The position numbers and the translations under genes were made by a program. Positions 4,752-50,536 of a DNA stretch of 62,516 nucleotides are shown one piece after another. How positions within the stretch are numbered: the first letter of the stretch is position 1; the number at the start of each line of letters is the position of its first letter. The stretch is from Syntrophomonadaceae bacterium (lineage in GTDB: Bacteria; Bacillota; Syntrophomonadia; Syntrophomonadales; Syntrophomonadaceae), in contig JAAYJK010000075.1 of NCBI GenBank assembly GCA_012522955.1, positions 1-62,516 on the forward strand, read 5' to 3'. A model generated the notes under the pieces. That model did no database searches. It saw nothing but the letters and a program-made list of their open reading frames with translations, and was not told the origin of the DNA.

Positions 4752-5597
4752 ATGAAAAATGAGCTGATAAGTGTGGAGACCGAGGATGGGATTGTTCTGC
4801 ATGGAGCTCTATATGAAGCCCCGGCAGCTAAAGAAACGGCAGTTATCATGCAGCATGGAGCAGCCATGAACTTCTATACCGGCATGGGACGGTTTCTGCC
4901 CGCCATTCTGGTTCAGGGAGGCTATAGCTGCTTTAGTGCCAACAACCGGGGACATGATTTCGGTACCGCACCGGATAATGATAAAAAACCGGTTATTGGA
5001 TTAATGCGGGATACCTTTAAGGAGTGTGTAAAGGACGCCCGGGCTTTAATTGCTTTAATGAAAGGGCGGGGCTATCAGCGCCTAGTCTTGCTAGGACACA
5101 GCCAGGCTATACCCAAGATAGTATATGCCCAGAACCTGGCTCAGTTTCCTGAAGTAGCGGGATTAATACTGATCAGTTCTCCCCCCTCGGTAACCCAGAT
5201 GATGAGATATCTGGCTACCGAAGATTTTTATGAACGGGGATTGTTTAAGGCCCGAGAATTAAGTGAACTGGGGATGGGGGATCAGTTGATTGTATTGAAG
5301 GGCCGAGGAACTATGCCTTGGATTTTTACTGCCCGAACCTTCCTGGACTTTTATGGTCCTGGAACCCCAGCGGATACGGAAGAATTAGTGCGGCAAGTAT
5401 ATTGTCCCATACTGTTAACCCGAGGGAGCCAGGATTTTCCCCCGGTTACCCGAGAACTCCTACAAAGGATTAAGATCAATTCTGCTCATCCGGATAAGAC
5501 CCAGGTAGTTGAAATAGCAGGAGCAGATCATTTTTATATTGGCTATGAGGATGAACTGGGGGAGAAGATTCTGGACTGGTTAAATGGGATGGTTTAG
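4752..5597 (+). CDS. Alpha/beta-hydrolase family protein
   Basis: A 281-residue alpha/beta-hydrolase, probably a cytoplasmic esterase or acyl-hydrolase. The oxyanion-side motif MQHGAAMN is near residue 35. The nucleophile elbow is LLGHSQA with Ser117, so the usual final Gly of GxSxG is Ala. The candidate acid is Asp in TRGSQDF and the catalytic His is in AGADHFY near the C-terminus. The N-terminal strand ISVETEDGIVLHGALYE is typical. The start has GGAGAAGGG just upstream. It lies 100 bp after the small hypothetical gene and may share its transcript. Substrate unknown. Confidence 0.8.
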   Translation: MKNELISVETEDGIVLHGALYEAPAAKETAVIMQHGAAMNFYTGMGRFLPAILVQGGYSCFSANNRGHDFGTAPDNDKKPVIGLMRDTFKECVKDARALIALMKGRGYQRLVLLGHSQAIPKIVYAQNLAQFPEVAGLILISSPPSVTQMMRYLATEDFYERGLFKARELSELGMGDQLIVLKGRGTMPWIFTARTFLDFYGPGTPADTEELVRQVYCPILLTRGSQDFPPVTRELLQRIKINSAHPDKTQVVEIAGADHFYIGYEDELGEKILDWLNGMV

Positions 5598-5859: not shown

Positions 5860-5875
5860 TGGCATAGAATTTGCT
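5860..5875 (+). promoter_or_regulatory. Sigma-54 (-24/-12) promoter of beta-oxidation cluster 1
   Basis: TGGCATAGAATTTGCT fits TGGCAYR-N4-TTGCW at every defined position, with GG and GC ten bases apart. The predicted transcript would start near 5886, run through the hbd relic, and reach crotonase at 6031. Two identical dyads lie upstream and a sigma-54 activator gene lies downstream in the cluster. Confidence 0.75.
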
Positions 5876-11014: not shown

Positions 11015-11106
11015 TATAATTTTCTTAATATAATAGAATATCCCAGTTAAAAGTACGGTCAGATGTAAACGCATTTTAATTCGTGGTTTTTAAAATGGGG
11101 GAAGCC

Positions 11107-12504
11107 ATGGAAAATTTCATGCTGTGGGGGGAGCAGAAATTGGAAATTGGACGGATACTGGAAGCTTTATTTACTGAAAACCAGTTTATGGCGGCTATGA
11201 TTGTGGACGATAAGGGGAGGATTGTCTCCATTAGTGAAACTTATTTGAAGGTATTGAATCTAAGCCGGGAAGAGGTGATTGGCCGACCGGCCAAGGAAAT
11301 TACCCCGCATACCCGGGTTATGAACGTGCTCAAAAACGGAAAAGCCGTAGTTGGTTATAATTGGCGAATTAATGACCATAATATGATAGCCTCCACCATA
11401 CCTATTATCCAGGAAGGCATGGTGGTAGGCGCTTTTGCCTACAGTGTATTTATGGATATTTGGAATGCCCAGGATACCATTGAGAATTTGATCACTGAGA
11501 TAAATATGTATAAAGACGAAGTGGATAATCTGTACAAGGCTAAGTACAGCTTTGACGATATTATTGGCAAGAATGAAGCCTTCCGCAAGGTCAAGAAATT
11601 TGCCCGTCAGGTGGCCCAGCATACTATTAGCACTGTACTCCTGTGCGGGGAAAGCGGTACTGGCAAAGAGCTCTTTGCCCAGGCCATTCATAATCAATCC
11701 AGCCGCAGCCGTTTTCCCTTTCTAAGGATTAATTGTGCTGCCATACCGGAAAATCTGTTGGAAGCAGAATTGTTCGGTTATGAAGAGGGAGCTTTTACGG
11801 GGGCCAAAAAGGGAGGCAAACCGGGTAAATTCGAATTGGCCAATGGGGGTACTATATTCCTGGATGAGATCGGCGAGATGACTTTGACCATGCAGAGCAA
11901 ATTGCTGGTTGCTCTGCAGGAACAGGAAATAGAGCGTCTGGGAGGCAGGCATCCGATCAAGGTTAATGTAAGGGTAATAGCAGCCAGTAACAAAAATCTG
12001 GAGAATATGATTGAAAGCGGTATATTTAGAGAGGATCTTTATTACCGGCTGAATGTGGTGCGCTTGGATCTGCCGCCCTTGAGAAAAAGAGCGGACGATA
12101 TTCCTTTGTTATGTCAGCATATTATCACCCACTTAAACTGCCGCCTCCATACTGGAACTAAAAAAATCTCCAGCTCCGCCCTGGAGATGCTGAGCACTTA
12201 TGCCTGGCCGGGCAATGTACGCGAGTTGGAAAATGTGCTGGAAAGGGCCATGATCCTGGCTGATATGGAAAAGACCCAGGTCCTGGATGAGCGGCATTTT
12301 ATGTTTATAAAAAAACAGTTGGATCTTTGCCGGGCCGCCCATGACCAGCAAAACCTGAAAAATGCAGTCCGGGAATTTGAGCGGGATCTGATTGAAAAGG
12401 CCTTGCAGGATGCAGATTATGACCGAGTAAAAGCTGCCGAACTGCTAGGAATAGATCTTTCCACCCTCTACCGTAAGCTGAAAAAATACGGCTACTCAGC
12501 TTAA
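11107..12504 (+). CDS. Sigma-54-dependent transcriptional activator with PAS domain (cluster 1)
   Basis: A bacterial enhancer-binding protein of about 465 residues. One PAS-type sensor domain occupies roughly residues 10-125 and is followed by a short coiled coil. The AAA+ domain has Walker A GESGTGKE, the sigma-54 contact loop GAFTGAKK and Walker [14 protein letters not shown] Fis-type helix-turn-helix ends the protein ([20 protein letters not shown]). ATG at 11107 is preferred because GGGGGA precedes it; GTG 11083 and ATG 11095 are in frame but lack a site. It lies directly after the CoA-transferases, making it the likely activator of the promoter at 5860 through the CTTTGGC-N6-GCCAAAG dyads. 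The ligand is unknown. Confidence 0.88.
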
Positions 12505-29208: not shown

Positions 29209-31302
29209 ATGCGGATTAGAGTCAGTGAGTTGATGAACTCCAGCTTACTTTTCTTGCAATACGGACAAAGTGTGGCAGAAGCTGCCCGGCTTTTTGTGGA
29301 AAATGACAATATTTCTGCTCTGCCCGTTCTAGATGATAATCATCAACTGCTGGGGTTTTTAAGCAAAAAGCAATTGCTGGTTGCCCTGGCTGGGGGACTA
29401 TCTTCCCAGGATGGAATAGGCAGCCTGATTAACCGGCAATTCAACAGCATTTCTATCCAGGAGTTCTTGCCACTTATACTGGAAGACAAATTTGAATATA
29501 TGCCGGTTGTAAATGGAGATGAATTGGTGGGCATGCTCTACTATGAGGAAGTGTATCATGCTATCTCCGAACGACTATACGCCAAACATCTGGATATGGA
29601 AGCAAGTATTGATGCGGTATATAATCCGGTTATTTCAATAGATAATGACTACCAAATAGAGATATTTAATAGAGCAGCGGCTAAGCTAATGGGCATGTGG
29701 GCCCAGGCAGTTAGGGGTTCCGATGCCCGGGAAATACTCTGTGATACTGGAGTTTTGGAGCCGTTGCTTAGCGGCTCCCATGCTCCTTTGCCAGCCAATA
29801 AACTACTAATAGGGGGAAGAAGCTTTCTGCCCTATCGTACTGATATTATCAGGGATGAGCGGACTATTGGAGCCATACTGGTTTTACGGGAGATATCAGA
29901 GTTTGAAGAACTGGCCAAAGAATCCGAGTATACCAAAAAGCTTAACCGGGAGCTGGATGCCATAATAGAGTCTTCTTTTGATGGCTTATATGTTACCGAT
30001 GGACAGGCCAATACCCTAATGCTTAACCAGGGCTTTGAACGTATTACCGGGGTCATGGGATATGAGTGTATCGGTCGCAATATGGCGGACCTGGTCAAGG
30101 ACGGTATCTTTTCCCGTTCCGGCACCCTCTTGGCCCTGGAGAAAAGGAAGCGAGTTACTATAACCATTGTTCCCCGCAGCGGCAAGGAAGTTTTAATTAC
30201 CAGCAACCCCATCTTCGATGAACAGGACAATATTATTATGGTGGTCACCAATGTGCGCGATATTACGGAATTAAATGAATTGCAGCGGCGTCTGCAGCAG
30301 GTAGAGGGCTTGCGGCAGCTGTACAAAAGTGAATTACAGCAGCTTAAAATGCAGAATTCTCAGAAAATGGTGGTAAAATCAAGCAAAATGAAGGAATTGC
30401 TGAATCTGGTTACCAGAGTGGCGGGAGTAGACTCCACGGTTCTGATTCAGGGTGAGTCAGGGGTAGGAAAAGAGCTGATAGCGGAAATTATTCATCAGAG
30501 CAGTAAACGGAGGGAAGGCCCTTTTATAAAAGTTAACTGTGGTGCCATTCCTGAAAATCTGCTGGAATCGGAGCTCTTTGGCTATGAAGAAGGAGCTTTT
30601 ACCGGAGCCAGGAAAAGTGGGAAAATCGGCCTGTTTGAACTGGCTAATAATGGCATTCTGTTCCTGGATGAGATAGGGGAACTGCCTTTGGGCTTGCAGG
30701 TGAAACTCTTGCGGGTACTGCAAAACAAGGAGATAAGTAGGGTAGGTGGAAGTAAATCCTTTAAAGTGGATACCCGCATTATGGCTGGAACTAACCAGGA
30801 TTTGATGGAAATGATTAACCAGCAAAAATTCCGATTGGATTTATATTATCGCTTAAATGTTATTCCTATAACAGTGCCCCCCTTAAGGGAAAGGATGGAA
30901 GACACACCGGTATTGGCCAATCACTTTTTGGAAATCTTCAATCAGAAGTACGGAATGAACAAACGTTTTCACAAAAATGTAATAGATTGCTTTATGGAAT
31001 ACCATTGGCCGGGAAATGTGCGGGAATTGCAAAATCTTACCGAACGTTTGATGGTAACCAGCAATGATCGCATTATCAAAACCGCCGATCTGCCTGGGGC
31101 TATAAATAGGCTTTGGTTAAAAAACGATCCCGACCATGGCTTATGCTCATTGCGCCAGACAGTGGAAAATGCGGAGCGACAGCTGCTAGAAAAAGCCTTT
31201 AAACGCTACAAGACTACCTATCAAATTGCTCAAGCCCTGGGGATAAACCAGTCGACGGTGGTTAGAAAAGCGGCCAAATATGGGATTAAAACCCGAAATT
31301 AA
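29209..31302 (+). CDS. Sigma-54 activator with CBS pair and two PAS domains (cluster 2)
   Basis: 697 residues. Two CBS domains (about residues 1-125; VSELMNSSLLFLQYGQSVAE and LPLILEDKFEYMPVVNGDEL) suggest binding of an adenosine nucleotide or derivative. Two PAS domains follow (about 130-235 and 250-355), then a short coiled coil. The AAA+ domain has [16 protein letters not shown] and GILFLDEIGEL. The Fis-type HTH at the end is TYQIAQALGINQSTVVRKA. The start has AAAGGGG upstream. It faces the acyl-CoA dehydrogenase-thiolase operon and is the obvious candidate to act at the promoter 34940-34955. The CBS input may report energy charge or CoA-adenylate state; this is inference. Confidence 0.9.
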   Translation: MRIRVSELMNSSLLFLQYGQSVAEAARLFVENDNISALPVLDDNHQLLGFLSKKQLLVALAGGLSSQDGIGSLINRQFNSISIQEFLPLILEDKFEYMPVVNGDELVGMLYYEEVYHAISERLYAKHLDMEASIDAVYNPVISIDNDYQIEIFNRAAAKLMGMWAQAVRGSDAREILCDTGVLEPLLSGSHAPLPANKLLIGGRSFLPYRTDIIRDERTIGAILVLREISEFEELAKESEYTKKLNRELDAIIESSFDGLYVTDGQANTLMLNQGFERITGVMGYECIGRNMADLVKDGIFSRSGTLLALEKRKRVTITIVPRSGKEVLITSNPIFDEQDNIIMVVTNVRDITELNELQRRLQQVEGLRQLYKSELQQLKMQNSQKMVVKSSKMKELLNLVTRVAGVDSTVLIQGESGVGKELIAEIIHQSSKRREGPFIKVNCGAIPENLLESELFGYEEGAFTGARKSGKIGLFELANNGILFLDEIGELPLGLQVKLLRVLQNKEISRVGGSKSFKVDTRIMAGTNQDLMEMINQQKFRLDLYYRLNVIPITVPPLRERMEDTPVLANHFLEIFNQKYGMNKRFHKNVIDCFMEYHWPGNVRELQNLTERLMVTSNDRIIKTADLPGAINRLWLKNDPDHGLCSLRQTVENAERQLLEKAFKRYKTTYQIAQALGINQSTVVRKAAKYGIKTRN

Positions 31303-31468: not shown

Positions 31469-33301
31469 TTACATAAAAGCATCTTCCTGTATATCGATGG
31501 CACTTCTATCCCCGGCCTTCATGGCCTTATGATATCCTAAGATTTCAGGAACATGGTTCATAATATAGAACCTGGCGGTGGCGATTTTACCCTTATAGAA
31601 AGTTGCATCGAAGTGGTCTTCGCCCAGTTCGGCCAGCTTCTTGGCCGCCAATAAGGCCTGAGAGAGCATGAGCTTGCCGCAGTAGACTCTGGCCCCTGCA
31701 TGCATGGTGCGAGTAGTGAAGAGTTGTTTCATCTGCCTATCTCCTTTGGTCCAGGCATCATTCATTTCAACAATCTCTTTGAAAGCACTCATGCACTCTG
31801 CCATCATGTCAAATTCAGCTGCGAATTGCTCAGTCCTCTGACCGGAGATGAAGTCGTCGATTTCAGCCACCCACTTTTTGAATGGTTCGCCGCCCTTCAT
31901 GGTGAACTTTCTGCCGGTATAGTCCTGGGCCTGGATAAAGTTGGTGCCTTCCCAGATGCCATAGATCACTACGTCCCGGTATAGTTCAGCTCCGGCATAC
32001 TCTTCCATGAAGCCGTAGCCGCCGTGACACTGTATGGCTTCACCGGTGGTAATTCTGGCCATGTCGGAGGTGTACGCCTTGCACAAGGGGTTATTGATCA
32101 TGAACATGTCATGATAGTATTCTCTTTCTTCCGGTGTAGGAGCGTCTTTGGATAGGTCCACATAGAGATAGGATTGGTAAATCAAGGCCCGGGTGGCTTC
32201 CAAGACGGATTTCTGTAACAATAGCATGCGGCGGACGTCTTCGTGCTCAATGATCCGGACGCTGGGGCCCTTGGGATTGGTGGAATGCCTGCTCTGAACC
32301 CGTACTTTCGTGTAATCCAAAGCGGCATAGTATGCTGAGCCCATGCAACCCAGGGCAAATAAGCCGGTGTTCAGACGCTCTTCGTTCATAAAGGTGAACA
32401 TCTGGGACATACCTATGCCGCGGCCGTCTACCACTTCTACTTCACCTAGCATCCAGCCGTAACAATTGTCGTTTTCGCCCATGGCCAGGGTTAGGGTCGA
32501 AGAACCATGAATACCCATCTTGTGCTCAATACCCACGGAGGTTACGTCGTTCCATGCGCCCAGGGAACCATCATCATTGACCCAGAATTTGGGCACTATA
32601 AACAGAGATATACCGGCGGTACCTGCTTTGGATCCCGGAGTTTTGGCCAACATTAAGTGGATAATGTTTTCCGCCAAGTCATGGTCACCGGAGGTGATAA
32701 AGCATTTAGTCCCTTTCATCTTATAGATGTGGGGTTTATCGGTGGGGGTGGCCCGGCTTTGAAGGGCGCCTACGTCAGATCCTGCACCGGGTTCGGTCAG
32801 GCCCATGGTGCCGCACCATTCACCACTATACATCTTGGGAAGGAACAATTCCTTTTGCTTTTCGGTGCCATATTCCTGGAACACGGTGGTAGCACCCTGA
32901 GTCAGACACCAGAACATGACTATGGACGGGGAGGCAGCGGATTGCATTTCCAGAATGGGAGAGTACCAGGCCAGGGGTATCTTGCCTTCGCCCCGGAATC
33001 CAAACTGGGGCCCTAACTCGGCATCCATAATGGTTTTGTAGACAGTCTTGAAAGATTCAGGAGTTACCACGGCATGTTCCTCGCCGCCCACAAAGGTAGC
33101 GCCGGGGTCATCGGCATCTTTGTTGGCCGGGCACATAACGTCACGACATACTTTAAAGTTAAGGTCCAGGAAATTATCCACGTCATCGATGGCGTAGTAA
33201 TCTTTGTAAGCATCCAGGGATAATAGAGTGTCCATGTCCAGCCATTCTTTAATCTGGAACTTAATGTCCCTCATCTGATACAACCAATTATAATGTGCCA
33301 T
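31469..33301 (-). CDS. Large acyl-CoA dehydrogenase with C-terminal extension
   Basis: 610 residues, about 200 longer than classical acyl-CoA dehydrogenases. The core has GTMGLTEPGAGSDVGALQSR (about 163-182), CHGGYGFMEEYAGAELYRDV and the catalytic IWEGTNFIQAQDYTGRK (Glu retained). The remaining 130 residues form the helical C-terminal domain of the branch that includes 3-methylmercaptopropionyl-CoA dehydrogenase (DmdC). The true substrate is unknown and could be a short- or branched-chain acyl-CoA. The start has GGAGGAG 7 bases upstream. It lies 142 bp after thiolase and is likely co-transcribed from the sigma-54 promoter at 34940. Confidence 0.88.
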   Translation of the reverse strand: MAHYNWLYQMRDIKFQIKEWLDMDTLLSLDAYKDYYAIDDVDNFLDLNFKVCRDVMCPANKDADDPGATFVGGEEHAVVTPESFKTVYKTIMDAELGPQFGFRGEGKIPLAWYSPILEMQSAASPSIVMFWCLTQGATTVFQEYGTEKQKELFLPKMYSGEWCGTMGLTEPGAGSDVGALQSRATPTDKPHIYKMKGTKCFITSGDHDLAENIIHLMLAKTPGSKAGTAGISLFIVPKFWVNDDGSLGAWNDVTSVGIEHKMGIHGSSTLTLAMGENDNCYGWMLGEVEVVDGRGIGMSQMFTFMNEERLNTGLFALGCMGSAYYAALDYTKVRVQSRHSTNPKGPSVRIIEHEDVRRMLLLQKSVLEATRALIYQSYLYVDLSKDAPTPEEREYYHDMFMINNPLCKAYTSDMARITTGEAIQCHGGYGFMEEYAGAELYRDVVIYGIWEGTNFIQAQDYTGRKFTMKGGEPFKKWVAEIDDFISGQRTEQFAAEFDMMAECMSAFKEIVEMNDAWTKGDRQMKQLFTTRTMHAGARVYCGKLMLSQALLAAKKLAELGEDHFDATFYKGKIATARFYIMNHVPEILGYHKAMKAGDRSAIDIQEDAFM

Positions 33302-33443: not shown

Positions 33444-34634
33444 TTAAAGCATTTCGAATACCGTAGTACAGCCCATGCCACCTCCGATACAGAGTGTAGC
33501 CAGACCAGTCTTCAGATTACGCTTTTGCATTTCATAAAGTAATGTGACAATAATCCGGGCTCCAGAACAGCCGATAGGATGGCCTAGAGCGATAGCGCCT
33601 CCATTAACATTGACTTTATCCATCTTATCAGACCAGCCACAGTCCCTAGCTACAGCTATGGATTGGGCGGCAAAGGCTTCATTGGCTTCAATCAGGTCAA
33701 TATCGTCTATGGTCATGCCCGCCTTGGCAAGGGCTTTCTTGGTGGCAGGAATGGGACCCAGGCCCATTACTGATGGATCTACTCCACCGGAGGCATAGCT
33801 GACGATTCTGGCTACCGCTTTGATTCCCAGCTCATCTGCCTTTTCTTTAGACATTACGATCATAGCTGCTGCACCATCATTTATCCCGGAGGAACTACCT
33901 GCAGTTACGGTTCCGCCTTTTTTAAAGGATGGCGCCAGCTTGGCCATCTGTTCCCGGGTTGCCATCCGGGGATGTTCATCGGTATCAAATACCTTTTCGC
34001 CTTTTTTAGTTTTAATGACAACCGGAACTATTTCATCTTTAAACTTGCCGCCTGCAATAGCTTCAGCAGTTCTAACCTGACTAACATACCCAAAATCATC
34101 CAGTTCTTCACGGGTTATGCCATATTGATCCACCACATTTTCAGCGGTAATTCCCATATGGTAGCCGTTGAAAATTTCCCACAAGCCGTCATAAACCATG
34201 CCATCTATCAGGTCCCCCTTGAACATGTTCATTCTATAACCCCAACGAGCATTAGGCAGGTAATAGGGATGAGCACTCATATTCTCCATGCCACCGGCCA
34301 GAATAATATCTGCATCCCCGGCTTTAATTATCTGAGCGGCTAGCTGGACTGACCTCATCCCAGAAGCGCATACTTTGTTAATGGTAAAAGCGGTGGTTTC
34401 CTTAGGAATTCCAGCATGTATCATCGCCTGGCGGGCTACGTTTTGGCCTTGTCCGCCCTGTAATACACAGCCAAAGATTACTTCTTCCACCTGCTCCGGC
34501 TGGATTCCGGCCCTTTTGATTGCTTCTTCCATGACAATTCTGCCCAGTTCTATGGTTTTGGTGTCTTTAAGCGTACCCCCGAAGGTTCCTATGGCTGTAC
34601 GGCACAGACCGACAACAACGACTTCTTTTGACAC
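33444..34634 (-). CDS. Acetyl-CoA acetyltransferase (thiolase)
   Basis: 396 residues, normal for a degradative or biosynthetic thiolase II. It cleaves acetoacetyl-CoA to two acetyl-CoA in this context. Nucleophile Cys89 is in [12 protein letters not shown], His is in [17 protein letters not shown] and the second Cys is in [16 protein letters not shown]. The start at GTG 34634 is chosen because GGAGAGGTGG lies 6 bases before it; longer readings to 34742 add a sequence unlike any thiolase. First gene behind the sigma-54 promoter at 34940, leaving a 5' leader of about 300 bases. Confidence 0.93.
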
Positions 34635-34939
34635 TATTGTCCACCTCTCCTTCATATAAATAATAAATACATAATCCCAAACCCCAAGTCTCAATGATGA
34701 ATAATGATTTTGAATGGCATCATCGCAGTTGATAAAAAGCATTATCCCCCCTTTAGCATTATTTAAATTAATACAAAAACTAACTACTCCCGGAGAAGTA
34801 GAAAGGCAAGACCATTAGCATTAAGTAGAACTGCGGCTCAAGCTACCATGAAGACCGTATTAGCAATCAAGCTATATACGAAATTAAATGATATGAGTAT
34901 AAAATCAGAAGTAGTTATCTCTATCTCTAAAAAGAAATA

Positions 34940-34955
34940 TGCAATATGTATGCCA
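34940..34955 (-). promoter_or_regulatory. Sigma-54 promoter of beta-oxidation cluster 2
   Basis: On the minus strand TGGCATACATATTGCA, a full match to TGGCAYR-N4-TTGCW. It faces thiolase. Three identical dyads lie 79, 102 and 181 bp upstream (centre to -24), and a CBS-PAS activator gene lies at the other end of the cluster. Confidence 0.78.
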
Positions 34956-35024
34956 AATCATGGCAATAAAAGCGGCTGTAAAAATGGGGCTTAGAGCAGC
35001 TTGCTGCTTGAAGCTAAAAAGAAT

Positions 35025-35142
35025 AATGCATGAAAGCATTAAAATAAAATGCGGAATTGCATTACCCGAAAAAATGTACTTGCTTCGACCATGCTAGATT
35101 AAATTATTACAAAAAAAGCAAGTGTAAATGCATACTTGCATT
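35025..35142 (-). promoter_or_regulatory. Three enhancer dyads AATGC-N6-GCATT
   Basis: Exact AATGC-N6-GCATT dyads at 35025-35040, 35048-35063 and 35127-35142, with different 6-base centres (ATGAAA, GGAATT, ATACTT). Conserved arms with variable centres of constant length are what a dimeric HTH activator would select. The set lies upstream of the sigma-54 promoter at 34940. The rest of the gap up to 35383 is AT-rich and shows only minor palindromes. Confidence 0.72.
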
Positions 35143-35383: not shown

Positions 35384-36046
35384 TTGTTTCCACTTCGCGA
35401 TAGTACCCCTAGTGAATCTTTTCCCATGGTTACAGTGCTTTTGATATTAATCAACTTGGCCGTGTTTATTCTGGAGATAATGGCAGGACCTGAGCTGCTA
35501 AATCAACTGGTTTATGTATTCGGTCTGGTACCAGCTTATCTGAATGAACCGGGGACCTTGATTTCTTATTATCCACTTTTGACCTCCATCTTTTTGCATG
35601 GAGGCTGGATGCATCTTATTGGCAATATGTGGATTTTATGGCTGTTTGGCGACAACATTGAAGATCATATGGGTTCCGGTCGATTTTTATTATTTTATCT
35701 AGTATGCGGGCTGGCCGCCGGAATGGCTCATTATTATATTAATCCCCAATCCAGTATTCCGGTAGTAGGAGCTTCCGGGGCAGTAGCCGGAGTTATGGGT
35801 GCTTACTTTTTAATGTTCAGACATGCCCGGATACTGACTTTTGTACCTCCCTTTTTCCTTTTTACCTTACCGGCCTGGGTCTATTTGGGCTTTTGGGTTT
35901 TAAGCCAGTTGTATTGTGGAACCGCAGATGTGATTGCGGCTAATTCCTGTGGTTCCATTGCTTTTTGGGCCCATATCGGAGGTTTTGGCGCCGGCATGCT
36001 TTTGCACCGGATCTTTCTAATCAAGGAACCTCACTCCCTCCCATAA
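35384..36046 (+). CDS. Rhomboid-family intramembrane serine protease
   Basis: 220 residues with six hydrophobic helices. The family L1-loop element is HGGWMHLIGNMWILWLFGDN. Catalytic Ser is in VVGASGAVAGVMGAYF and catalytic His in FWAHIGGFGAGML, so the enzyme should be active. The start is TTG with AAGGAG 9 bases upstream. A stand-alone gene; substrate unknown. Confidence 0.9.
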   Translation: MFPLRDSTPSESFPMVTVLLILINLAVFILEIMAGPELLNQLVYVFGLVPAYLNEPGTLISYYPLLTSIFLHGGWMHLIGNMWILWLFGDNIEDHMGSGRFLLFYLVCGLAAGMAHYYINPQSSIPVVGASGAVAGVMGAYFLMFRHARILTFVPPFFLFTLPAWVYLGFWVLSQLYCGTADVIAANSCGSIAFWAHIGGFGAGMLLHRIFLIKEPHSLP

Positions 36047-36131: not shown

Positions 36132-37325
36132 CTAAACCCTTATGGACTCAGCCGAACGATCATTGATTTTCTTTAGCAAGCGTTCGATGTGGTCCTGGGC
36201 CAGGCGGCTCTTATCATCACTATTCTGCAGGAAGTAAATGGTGTTTTCTATTCTCTCCTGGCTGGCTTTGATTTCGTCCCAGTGACGTTCTTCTTCATAG
36301 AGGTTCATGCAGTCTTGCAGGTCATTAGCTCGGCCGGTTTCCAGATAATGCTTAAATACACTTAAGGTATTAATATCTTGATAATCGGCATGAACCAGGG
36401 ATTTACTGATGATATTGTTATATATTCTCAAATTTTTTTGGGCATTTTTCAGTTTGGATTCGGTAATCTCTATGTCCACATAACAGCGTTCCAGAAAGTC
36501 AGAGCTGTAGTCCTGCCATTGTTCCAAAACCTCCTTATAACGGTCACAGGCTTTTTCATATTCGCGATATTGCATTAGATATATTTTCATCTGCTGATTA
36601 AAGCTGTTGTGTTCCTCTTCATGGCTCTTTCTTTTCCGACGTGCTTTCAAAGAAGCAAATGGGATTAAATTACTGCCGGGAGAGGGGGAAGCTTCTTCTT
36701 TTTTAGGCTTGGTGGGCAGAATATCTGGCTCCTGAGGCCATAGATTTTCAATGTTGACTATTCCATTACGCAGCTCCAGCAATTTGTTTAAATAATTTAT
36801 ATGCTTGTTTACCTTCTCGGTATCGTGCAGGGAGATAATACACATGTTAATATCTTTGATTAATTCCTCCTTGTTCTTATGATTCTTTTTGGAGCTCTTG
36901 CGGCCCTTGTGATACTCCAGCATTTCTTTATTGATGGGCTCCAGGAATTCCAGGGCCATAATAGCGCCGAAATCCCCGGAGCTTATCTGCTGGATGTCCG
37001 GCGGAGTATTTTTGCTGAAGTAAAAGCGAGTATTGCTGAAAGGGTAATAGTAAGGACCCACAATATGGATATATTCGTTGTTGAGCAGGGTGTCCAGGTC
37101 CTTGTTCAGCCCCAGTTCATCTTCCAGCAGTTCCATCCACTGACAGCAAGGAGCCAGGGCATCTTCCTCCGATTGGGTTTCTGCTTTGAGCTGTTGATAA
37201 GTCTGCAGGCTGATGCTAAGGTGAGAATTATAATAATAAAACAGTACTTCTTCAGGGGTGTATTGGAGCAAAAGGGACAGATCTGGATAGTGAGCCTTAT
37301 CCTTATTCAAAAATGTAAAAAACAT
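36132..37325 (-). CDS. Hypothetical protein with long charged coiled-coil C-terminus
   Basis: About 397 residues, no family recognised. The first 130 residues are mixed alpha/beta (YTPEEVLFYYYNSHLSISLQ; YIHIVGPYYYPFSNTRFYF). A basic low-complexity linker follows around 145-250 (SSKKNHKNKEE; PTKPKKEEASPSPG; KARRKRKSHEEE). The remainder is strongly helical and charged, likely coiled coil. No signal peptide or membrane helix. ATG 37325 is preferred because AAGGAGG lies 5 to 6 bases upstream. It could be a structural or nucleic-acid-binding protein; this is a guess from composition only. Confidence 0.7.
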   Translation of the reverse strand: MFFTFLNKDKAHYPDLSLLLQYTPEEVLFYYYNSHLSISLQTYQQLKAETQSEEDALAPCCQWMELLEDELGLNKDLDTLLNNEYIHIVGPYYYPFSNTRFYFSKNTPPDIQQISSGDFGAIMALEFLEPINKEMLEYHKGRKSSKKNHKNKEELIKDINMCIISLHDTEKVNKHINYLNKLLELRNGIVNIENLWPQEPDILPTKPKKEEASPSPGSNLIPFASLKARRKRKSHEEEHNSFNQQMKIYLMQYREYEKACDRYKEVLEQWQDYSSDFLERCYVDIEITESKLKNAQKNLRIYNNIISKSLVHADYQDINTLSVFKHYLETGRANDLQDCMNLYEEERHWDEIKASQERIENTIYFLQNSDDKSRLAQDHIERLLKKINDRSAESIRV

Positions 37326-37540
37326 AAACAACCTCCTTAAGATTAAGATATGTTAGCATTATTTAATTTCTATATATTTCCAATAATTCCTTCTTTTGAT
37401 AAAATTATTTTTCTACTCCTTTTACTGCCTTTAATTCTGGCTGTATTTTGCATTATAATAATAATTGATTCTCCTGCGCGAAGTTATATATCGCAGGTCT
37501 GGACCATAAAGCTTAAAAATAGCCTTCAGGAGGTATTGAA

Positions 37541-46838: not shown

Positions 46839-47624
46839 CTATTTGTTTTTCCAGCTGGGTTTCCGCTTTTCGATGAAAGCTCCCATACCTTCGGATTTAT
46901 CTTCGGTGGCACAACTGTTACCAAACATATCCGACTCAATAGCCATAGCGGTATCCAGGTCGCACTGCATACCAACGGTAATGGCATGTTTGGAATATGC
47001 TACTGCCAGAGGAGCCTGCTTGATAATCTTTTTAGCCAGTTTCTTGGCTTCTTCCATTAATTGATCAGCAGGATACACATGGTTTACCAGTCCTATCCGA
47101 TAAGCTTCATCGGCTTTAATGTTATTGGCGGTATAGGTAAGTTCTTTGGCCCGGCCTTCACCAATCAGCCGAGGCAGTCTCTGGGTGCCGCCGAATCCAG
47201 GTATAATGCCCAGGCCTACTTCGGGTTGTCCAAATAGGGCGACTTCTGAAGCCAGTCGAATATCACAGGCCATGGCCAGTTCACAGCCGCCTCCCAAGGC
47301 AAATCCATTAACGGCAGCTATTACCGGTTTCTCCATGCGTTCCAGCTTGCGGAAAACATATTCCCCATAAGCTGAGAACTTGCGGCAGCCAGGTTGATCC
47401 ATTTCATACATCCATACTATGTCAGCTCCGGCTACAAAGGATTTTTCTCCGGCGCCAGTAATGATCAGTACTCTAACTTCATTATCGTCATCCAATACAT
47501 CAATAGCTTGAGCCATTTCTTTTAGAACATCGGCATTGAGCGCATTCAATGCTTTGGGACGATTGATATACATCAGGGCTATGCCGTCTTCTTTTTCAAT
47601 AATCAGATTTTGGTAAGTCAACAC
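46839..47624 (-). CDS. crt: Enoyl-CoA hydratase (crotonase), cluster 3
   Basis: 261 residues. Oxyanion segments are AGEKSFVAGADI and NGFALGGGCELAMACDIR. Both catalytic glutamates are present (GGGCE and QPEVGLGIIPGFGGTQRL). The start is GTG with GAGGGGG about 4 to 5 bases upstream. It lies 48 bp after 3-hydroxybutyryl-CoA dehydrogenase in one operon. A close paralogue, at 6031-6810, sits behind an hbd relic, so the hbd-crotonase pair seems to have been duplicated. Confidence 0.92.
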   Translation of the reverse strand: MLTYQNLIIEKEDGIALMYINRPKALNALNADVLKEMAQAIDVLDDDNEVRVLIITGAGEKSFVAGADIVWMYEMDQPGCRKFSAYGEYVFRKLERMEKPVIAAVNGFALGGGCELAMACDIRLASEVALFGQPEVGLGIIPGFGGTQRLPRLIGEGRAKELTYTANNIKADEAYRIGLVNHVYPADQLMEEAKKLAKKIIKQAPLAVAYSKHAITVGMQCDLDTAMAIESDMFGNSCATEDKSEGMGAFIEKRKPSWKNK

Positions 47625-47672
47625 TTTTCCCCCTCTTCAGGTTTTTCCTTCCCAATCAGATTACAGCCGGGT

Positions 47673-48527
47673 CTACTTATTGTAGTCGTAGAAGCCCTTA
47701 CCGGTCTTCATTCCCAGCCATCCAGCCCTTACCAACTGCTTCAGTGGAGGAGCGGGACGATATTTAGGATCGCCAGTTTCCTCGTATAGAGTCTTGCATA
47801 CGGCCAGGGCGATATCTACTCCTACCAAGTCGCAAAGGGTCAGTGGACCCATGGGCCAACCAGCCCCTAGTTTCATAGCGGTATCAATATCTTCAGTGCT
47901 AGCCAGTCCTTCATATTGGATAAATGCCGCTTCGTTCATTCCAGGTAGGAGAATACGGTTGACGACAAAGCCGGGACCTTCTTTTACTTTAATCGGAGTC
48001 TTTTTAATTTCTTTGGAAAATTCCATAACTGCATTCAGTGTATCCTCGGAAGTCTGTACCGCCGGAATAACCTCAATAAGTTTCATGATATTGGCCGGGT
48101 TGAAGAAATGTACGCCAATTACCTTGTCAGCACGCTTGGTGATAGCAGCAATTTCAGTAATGGACAAAGATGAAGTGTTGGTAGCCAGTATTACATCAGG
48201 AGCCATTAAGGCATCCAATTTGGTATAGATCTCTTTTTTGAGGTTCATGTTTTCAGGAACCACTTCAATAATGAATTCAGCATCTTTCAAATCGTCGAAG
48301 TTCACTGTGCCTTTGATTTTACCCAGAACGGCATCGGCGGTTCCGGGAGCAGCTTTACCTTTTTCTTCTGATTTTAGTATCTGTTTTTTAATGCGACCCA
48401 AGGCATTATCTATAAATTTCTGGTCTATATCATAGAGTATAACCTCTTTGCCTGCAGCTGCAGTAGCCCAGGCAATACCCAAACCCATAGTACCAGCACC
48501 TAATAAACCTACTTTATTAAATCCCAT
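47673..48527 (-). CDS. hbd: 3-hydroxybutyryl-CoA dehydrogenase
   Basis: 284 residues, the normal length for the short monofunctional enzyme. It oxidises 3-hydroxybutyryl-CoA to acetoacetyl-CoA with NAD. Rossmann motif [15 protein letters not shown]; catalytic His in [17 protein letters not shown]; substrate Asn/Arg segment [15 protein letters not shown]-terminus [19 protein letters not shown] 48527 is chosen because GGGGG lies about 7 bases upstream and relatives start there. First gene behind the sigma-54 promoter at 48688. Confidence 0.93.
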
Positions 48528-48687
48528 TAATAAATACCCCCTCAAGTATTTTTCTATGTTGTTTTAAAAAATGCATACTAAAAAAACGGCAATAAGCCAC
48601 CCCATACCCCCTTTCATTAAAATGTAACCCCTTTTAATTGAATACCCCTATTGATGGTTAATTGAAAATCCACTCCCTCCCTTTTTA

Positions 48688-48703
48688 TGCAATAAATGTA
48701 CCA
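48688..48703 (-). promoter_or_regulatory. Sigma-54 promoter of beta-oxidation cluster 3
   Basis: On the minus strand TGGTACATTTATTGCA: one mismatch (C to T) from TGGCAYR-N4-TTGCW, with GG and GC ten bases apart. It faces hbd, giving a leader of about 150 bases. An inverted repeat lies 160 bp upstream and the activator gene directly behind that. Confidence 0.7.
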
Positions 48704-48840
48704 GTTGTAGGTAAAATGCTTGTATATTGCATTCCTACGCAGTTTGACGGGTAGAACAGCTTTTACTTGAAAGGTTGGAAAATGTCCCCAATTAATACAG
48801 CGTGGGAGCTCGAATACCCAATATAATCCTACATAGAGAC

Positions 48841-48882
48841 AAGTGTCCTGTTTTGGGACGTTTGTCGCAAAACAGGACACTT
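48841..48882. promoter_or_regulatory. 15-bp inverted repeat; candidate enhancer for the hbd promoter
   Basis: Perfect arms AAGTGTCCTGTTTTG and CAAAACAGGACACTT around a 12-base spacer. Read as two inverted near-copies, it contains TGTCGCAAAACAGGACA and CGTCCCAAAACAGGACA (15 of 17 identical). It is centred about 160 bp upstream of the -24 element and overlaps the stop codon of the activator gene. A terminator role is less likely because TTGTCTC, not a T-run, follows on the minus strand. Confidence 0.6.
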
Positions 48883-50536
48883 ATAAATCGATATTGTATT
48901 TGAGCATTTTTCGGTACAAGGCGGAGCGGTGTATCTTGAGAGATTTGGCCGCTTTACTTTTATTGCCGGAGGCTTTTTCCAGAGCCCTAACGATGGCCTC
49001 TTTTTCTCGTTCCTGAAGGTGCTTTTCCAACGAGTTGGGAGATGCCACTTCCCAGCCCTCCCGGGCGGAAACTAGTATGGACGGGGGGATGTGTTCCTGG
49101 GTAATAGTATCGTGTTCGCAAAAATTAATGGCTCGTTCCAGAGTATTTTCCAGTTCTCGTACATTGCCCGGCCAATGGTAGGTTTGAAAACAGGATAGGA
49201 CCTCGGGTCGGATTAGGTTCACCTTGGTTCCCAGCTGTTCATTTAAACGGCGTAACAGTACCCCGCAGAGTATTGGTATATCTTCTTTTCTTTCCCGTAA
49301 GGGCGGCAAGTTAAGTATCACTACATTTAAGCGGTAATAGAGGTCTTCCCGAAACTTGCGTTCTTTTACCAGTCCAAACAGATTTTTATTGGTAGCCGCA
49401 ATTACTCTGACGTTTATGCGGGTAGAACTAATACCGCCTATCCGCTCCAATTCTCTTTCCTGTAAAACCCGTAATAGCTTAGCCTGCATAGCCATGGACA
49501 TATCAGCCACTTCGTCCAAAAAAATGGTTCCGTTATCGGCCAACTCAAATTTCCCGGGCTTCCCTTCTTTCCTGGCTCCGGTAAAGGCCCCTTCTGCATA
49601 ACCGAATAATTCGGATTCCAGCAGGGTTTCCGGTACCGCTGCACAATTTACTTTAACAAAAGGACCTTTGCGTCGAGAGCTGAGATTGTGGATAGCATGA
49701 GCGAACACTTCCTTGCCGGTTCCGCTCTCTCCGGCTATCAAGACCGTGGAAGTAGTGCGAGCGGCTTTTATGGCTAATTTCTTTTGCTTGACTAATTCTT
49801 TATTATTGCCAGCTATATCCTCCAAAGAGTATCTGGCGCTGCCATGTTCTGGTTCTCTAGGTATTTGTGAGGGCGCCGGATAGCTGGGGGAAAAAGTACT
49901 TTTGACTATAACGCCAATGGTGCGATTGCTTCTTGTAATAGGCAAATACACCAGGTTCAAAGTCCTTCCGCTATTTGCGATAGTTCGTCCAAACAAGGGC
50001 CGGCCTTCTTCTATGGAATGACGCAAGGTGGAAGGAGGGATAAGAGCAGCCAGGTTCTCCTTTACATCCTCTTTGGAACGGCATTTGAAGTATTTATAGC
50101 AAACCTCGTTGGCCCACAGTAAACGGACGTGCTCGTCAAAAACCGCTATTCCTTCATAAGGGTTTTGCAATAAGGAATTTAGCTGATCATCTTCGAAACT
50201 GTCAATTACTCGAAAGATAGCATAACACACAAAAGCATTAGGGCTTACTTCTAAAAGTCCTTTGCGAATAATTACTTCATTGCCCTTTATGAATGCCTTT
50301 TCCTGCACATAGAGTTCCCGCTGGCTAATCATGCTGTGAAACTGCAGTCCAGGTTTCAAGAGATCCACATGTTTGCCCATAATGGAGGAGGCATCTATGT
50401 TAAAAATCTTTTCAGCACTTTCATTCATAAAAATAAGGTTTTGGAAGGTATCGGTAATAAGTATACCCTCATTAACGTTGTGCAGTATAGGGTTCATTAT
50501 TAGGTCCAGCACATGCATATCTTCATTATATGACAT
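48881..50536 (-). CDS. Sigma-54-dependent activator with two PAS domains (cluster 3)
   Basis: 551 residues. Two PAS domains (about 10-110: [20 protein letters not shown]; and 120-225: [20 protein letters not shown]) precede an AAA+ domain with [16 protein letters not shown] and [11 protein letters not shown]. It ends in a Fis-type HTH ([20 protein letters not shown]). The start has CTGGAGGG upstream. It lies immediately upstream of the hbd-crotonase operon, separated only by the inverted repeat and the sigma-54 promoter, so it very probably controls that operon. The PAS ligand is unknown. Confidence 0.9.

Follow-up and report, generated by a model that had tools for sequence, protein, structure and literature searches.

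TyrR controls aromatic amino acid genes together with sigma-70. Its boxes, TGTAAA-N6-TTTACA, need a G-N14-C pair (PMC4374768). In the Clostridiales, the main text of one study describes sigma-54 regulons in which CrbR, AhcR and XcaA control crt-hbd-thl, atoE-hbd or thl (Nie et al., 2019; PMC6615313). The regulation of metabolism in syntrophic consortia is little known; in Syntrophomonas wolfei, Swol_2051-2052 are beta-oxidation genes (PMC4324140).

We analysed a stretch of 62,516 nucleotides of DNA from a Syntrophomonadaceae bacterium, referred to below as the window. It contains a thiolase operon preceded by three AATGC-N6-GCATT dyads. Comparison with related genomes makes it very probable that this region is a sigma-54 enhancer-promoter, in which the dyads are the UAS of the activator encoded at 29209-31302 and this activator switches on the thiolase operon, mainly via Tyr671 and Gln681. 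The region would then represent a new sigma-54 enhancer, conserved in a group of probable syntrophic fatty-acid oxidisers.

Promoter, operon and dyads

The promoter element contains GG-N10-GC, fits TGGCAY-N5-TTGCW and was rated perfect (Table 1). On the minus strand, it is identical to the clostridial sigma-54 consensus TTGGCATNNNNNTTGCT, as given in the main text of the Clostridiales study (PMC6615313), except for the final base, which is A for T. A single rpoN gene was identified in the genome (PF04552, E 7e-65, contig C91). An earlier note on this DNA, which had described an ideal -24/-12 element facing the thiolase/acyl-CoA dehydrogenase operon and had made this reading depend on the presence of rpoN, is therefore borne out in both respects, and the element is also conserved in the genus.

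Table 1. Coordinates in the window of the features of the thiolase locus, with the evidence for each
Feature	Position	Strand	Evidence
Sigma-54 -24/-12 element TGGCATACATATTGCA	34940..34955	-	Consensus match; near-invariance in five species; rpoN present
Predicted UAS dyad 1 (promoter-proximal) AATGCATGAAAGCATT	35025..35040		Exact; invariant arms but variable centre in five species
Predicted UAS dyad 2 AATGCGGAATTGCATT	35048..35063		Exact; 23 bp centre-to-centre from dyad 1
Predicted UAS dyad 3 (distal) AATGCATACTTGCATT	35127..35142		Exact; counterpart in five species of the genus
Predicted 5' leader, ~295 nt	34635..34929	-	Predicted start to conserved GTG; conserved blocks
Thiolase, first gene of controlled operon	33444..34634	-	Pfam Thiolase_N/C; GTG start conserved
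Acyl-CoA dehydrogenase, 610 aa, second gene	31469..33301	-	Pfam; thiolase precedes it in orthologous loci
Sigma-54 activator (bEBP), 697 aa, P0001	29209..31302	+	CBS, PAS, AAA+ with GAFTGA, TyrR-type HTH_50 (Pfam)
Tyr671 codon, proposed reader of outermost arm base (A)	31219..31221	+	Tyr-A/Arg-G covariation
Gln681 codon (in NQST), proposed reader of second arm base (A)	31249..31251	+	Gln-A/Ala-T covariation

At every orthologous locus of the genus, and also in G008, G009, G012 and G025, the acyl-CoA dehydrogenase gene comes directly after the thiolase gene in the operon order. GTG 34634 is the most likely start codon of the thiolase. The mechanically assigned ATG at 34742 was dropped because the GTG, together with the ribosome site AAGGAGAGG, is conserved in five species. 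With transcription predicted from the -24/-12 element to start at about 34929, this start codon would leave the leader listed in Table 1. A terminator-like hairpin (34801-34784) lies in this leader, as do two blocks of conserved sequence, AAGGGGGGRTAAT and GGGGTTTGGGATTATGT. Comparison of the leader with Rfam identified no family, only one weak snoRNA match far under its cut-off, and the fold signal was weak (z-score -1.0). For these reasons, we do not claim the leader as a riboswitch.

The dyads were likewise as the earlier note had reported, with constant arms and variable centres: all three are exact and in place. Measured from the -24 edge, their centres are 77, 100 and 179 bp upstream, which is within the usual range; the values of 79, 102 and 181 bp given earlier differ only in the reference point. 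The note had also raised the question of further copies in the genome. Exact AATGC-N6-GCATT occurs three times in the 2,534,859 bases, every time in this array (2.8 copies per genome are expected from base composition), and the reversed pattern, used as a control over the whole genome, gave 0 matches. The tandem pair is unique as well, since a whole-genome search allowing up to three mismatches found no second place for it, and a single target operon is therefore predicted. The dyads often extend to TAATGC-N6-GCATTA. A search of the literature for the literal motif strings found none, which is weak evidence because such strings are rarely written in this way, and a 2025 survey of sigma-54 regulons mentions neither Syntrophomonas nor such a motif (PMC12316311).

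The window also contains other elements of this kind. A second perfect sigma-54 promoter at 5860-5875, with two TTGGC-N6-GCCAA dyads about 150 bp upstream, faces genes for an enoyl-CoA hydratase, an acyl-CoA dehydrogenase and two CoA-transferases, together with the gene of a Fis-type activator at 11083-12504. These dyads and the Fis-type activator are a different enhancer-activator pair. Genes for an enoyl-CoA hydratase, a 3-hydroxyacyl-CoA dehydrogenase and a third activator (48881-50536) are found at 46839-50536, and a near-consensus sigma-54 element lies beside this activator at 48688. On the far side of the array, a 399-aa protein without a Pfam match (36132-37331) adjoins a rhomboid gene in all species of the genus that were examined and in G025, G032, G038 and G045.

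Conservation of the array

Gene order, promoter and array are the same in four further species of the genus. In an alignment of the five species, the arms of the dyads and the -24/-12 element are invariant, apart from one spacer base of the promoter and one arm base of the distal dyad in G004, and the centres of the dyads vary. This is the pattern expected for a dimeric protein that reads the arms. The five species all have a distal dyad, placed between -175 and -179, with the one mismatch in G004.

A scan of genome contigs for related loci identified only one close relative (L135), and whole-genome searches were therefore used instead. The tandem pair with a spacing of 22-23 bp was present in 12 of the 63 genomes of the order, and the control pattern in none. 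A related activator, the same array and beta-oxidation genes occur together in G001-G004, G007, G008, G009, G012, G057, G032, G025, G038, G045 and G030. Outside the genus, the downstream genes encode, for example, hydroxyacyl-CoA dehydrogenase, thiolase and acyl-CoA dehydrogenase, and in G007 two such operons are preceded by the array. The array adjoins the activator in G039, where the operon genes carry no labels; it lies on a 6-kb contig without an activator in G031, and on a separate contig from the activator in G014. Altogether, the array, the promoter and a neighbouring CBS-PAS activator recur across two families of the order, one of them the Syntrophomonadaceae; in unrelated families, array and promoter recur with other activators. 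The array is old and conserved.

Helix type and dyad sequence

The activator has an AAA+ domain with the GAFTGA loop and an HTH domain homologous to that of TyrR (HTH_50, E 1.2e-12; 1g2h, E 0.004, phmmer). Its orthologues are 79-90% identical in the genus, 62% in G009 and G025 (62.6% in the latter) and 56% in G007, and adjoin the same array wherever the contigs allow.

In an initial comparison, HTH domains were set against the dyads upstream of intergenic sigma-54 promoters, with the arm sequence left free. In this comparison, helix types differing in the residue after [ST][ST] (Tyr or Arg) and in the residue within [ND]xST (Gln or Ala) each went with dyad arms of their own. We then curated 49 sigma-54 promoters by hand and grouped them by the type of DNA-binding helix in the closest TyrR-type activator. 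Some loci had been picked by the dyad pattern (G032, G292, G075, G285), others by HTH or activator similarity (G025, G038, G045, G030, G039 and all Arg types), or by activator or thiolase homology (G007, G008, G009, G012, G057). Exact AATGC dyads were present at 20 of the 20 promoters with Tyr/Gln types and at 0 of the 29 others. Dyads of the same geometry with other arms, which emerged once promoters were grouped by helix and one mismatch in the promoter was tolerated, were GATGC for Arg/Gln types (6/6 promoters; 0/43 others) and GTTGC for Arg/Ala types (9/14; 0/35 others). In the curated set there were 47 exact sites, against 0.005 in shuffles. The helix classes are clustered in the activator tree, in which about five label changes suffice, so that only a few evolutionary events underlie the association, and a Fisher P from independent counting is too small. 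The uncurated tally agrees with the curated one, with a dyad at 20 of the 23 promoters nearest a Tyr/NQST activator, and two of the three exceptions were distant promoters in the window that lie beside other activators. In G013, G014:C146, G042, G047, G035 and G053, Tyr/NQST activators had no dyads within reach, most of the contigs ending before the promoter of the operon.

In other families, G292, G075, G141 and G285 were found via the dyad pair only, and a Tyr/NQST activator was present near each pair. In G075, G141 and G285 the activators carry sensor domains that resemble hydrogenases and/or ferredoxins. Among the neighbouring genes, those tested code for an FeFe hydrogenase in G075 and a bifurcating-type hydrogenase in G141. 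In these distant families helix and dyad are the same, and sensor and genes differ. AATGC dyads by Tyr/NQST activators of distant families were recorded at L177 (9777-9880), L178 (9684-9787), L179 (9574-9700) and L180 (9242-9464); at L177 and L178 they are placed between divergent sigma-54 promoters.

The dyads by themselves name no protein. The genome encodes 19 full-length sigma-54 activators, two of them in the window in addition to P0001, and one of the others, or an unrelated regulator, could be the protein that binds at this promoter. We consider such a different binder quite unlikely, because P0001 has the only Tyr/NQST helix among the activators of the genome with a C-terminus that was read (the C6 activator runs off its contig), and because the promoters of the other activators are without AATGC dyads. 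Furthermore, from one genus to another the sequence of the site changes with the helix, and it is seen again with sensor domains that are unrelated. The helix types hold within this genome too: the promoter of the C50 activator (Arg, NAST) carries GTTGC dyads. At the other perfect promoters of the genome, repeated dyads with identical arms were limited to a TATTT/AAATA pair (L204). The CBS-PAS activator, which had been proposed as the binder from proximity, can now be assigned to the dyads with good support from synteny, from the covariation of dyad and helix, and from its being the sole Tyr/Gln HTH read in the genome.

It is less likely still that the target of the dyads is not the thiolase but the rhomboid gene, which diverges from it on the plus strand at 35384. 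Although the array lies between two divergent genes and the rhomboid is adjacent to it throughout the genus, no -24/-12 element within one mismatch faces this gene, and the spacing of the dyads is fixed relative to the promoter on the thiolase side. The rhomboid gene is split from the array by another gene in G032 and by about 2 kb in G025, and was not found nearby in G007, G008, G012 and G057. We rejected it as the target on account of the missing facing element and of this separation or absence in relatives. The idea that the dyads are chance or purely structural inverted repeats with no binder deserves hardly any credence: with up to two mismatches the motif is indeed no commoner in the window than expected (49 vs 44), for which reason the analysis was restricted to exact or promoter-linked sites, but three exact copies within 118 bp are expected only 4.5e-8 times per genome, and conservation of the array extends to the arms, which are retained across genera, whereas the centres vary.

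If the dyads are the sites of the CBS-PAS activator, as we propose, a dimer of its TyrR-type HTH would occupy each of them, and three dimers on three dyads could form the active hexamer. This last suggestion follows from the number of dyads per promoter, which is usually two to four and most often three. DNA looping would allow the activator to touch sigma-54 RNA polymerase at the -24/-12 element, and the thiolase and acyl-CoA dehydrogenase would be turned on when the CBS and PAS domains detect a signal in the cytoplasm. Two HTH residues would account for most of the specificity: in each arm, Tyr671 would read the outer A, and Gln681 the A that follows it.

The dyads of the three helix types suggest a two-position code, with Tyr-A or Arg-G at the outer position and Gln-A or Ala-T at the next. 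It is likely that TyrR-type sigma-54 activators use such a code in modular form: the start of helix 2 would determine the outer base and [N/D]xST of the recognition helix the next one, with N6 fixed and tandem pairing at about 20-23 bp common. Arg-G and Gln-A are standard residue-base contacts. The TyrR HTH (1g2h) has an Arg at the position of Tyr671, which, together with the essential G-N14-C at the outer arm position of TyrR boxes, provides independent, experimental support for Arg-G. The code is incomplete, since a class with SQPT (C63 of the window's genome) breaks the simple Tyr/Gln rule: it has the Tyr and a helix Gln, yet a looser dyad, TRATNCA..TGNATYA. Activators of the SQPT class are about 820-1060 aa long (L203, G000:C63, ~5300-5580; relatives L181-L184 and L186), and their dyads are conserved as a tandem pair with a 23-bp spacing, upstream of a further thiolase operon. 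If the code is true, the enhancer specificity of many TyrR-type activators could be read from sequence. It would permit the prediction of enhancers and targets for a large group of activators, and exact residue-swap experiments would become possible.

Comparison with known systems

The locus of G025 has the thiolase, the acyl-CoA dehydrogenase, the activator and the dyads arranged as in the window, and differs by a single mismatch in each of two dyads out of three. We take the position of this locus to fit that of Swol_2051-2052 in S. wolfei.

With the regulons described in the main text of the Clostridiales study (PMC6615313), the thiolase locus shares a one-component activator of the PAS type, several UAS that precede a -24/-12 element by 100-250 bp, an activator gene beside its target, and, by prediction, control of thiolase and acyl-CoA metabolism. 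The difference lies in the site. For CrbR, AhcR and 13 other groups in that text the UAS is TGT-N10-12-ACA, an inverted repeat that the dyads, with AATGC-N6-GCATT, do not contain. Syntrophomonas is absent from the main text (PMC6615313), and a group with its own motif in that study might resemble the dyads.

The resemblance to TyrR concerns the HTH family, the arms six bases apart, and the outer position, where the G-N14-C of TyrR corresponds to the G of the Arg-type relatives. Here, in contrast, the protein is a sigma-54 activator whose sensors are CBS and PAS domains, with Tyr for Arg, and the site has A-N14-T for G-N14-C; the outer pair was A-N14-T in 47 of 47 exact sites, with the geometry the same. 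The dyad would work like a TyrR box but is none. The pairing of a sigma-54 enhancer with its activator is of an already known kind, and the novel part is the proposed helix-to-base code.
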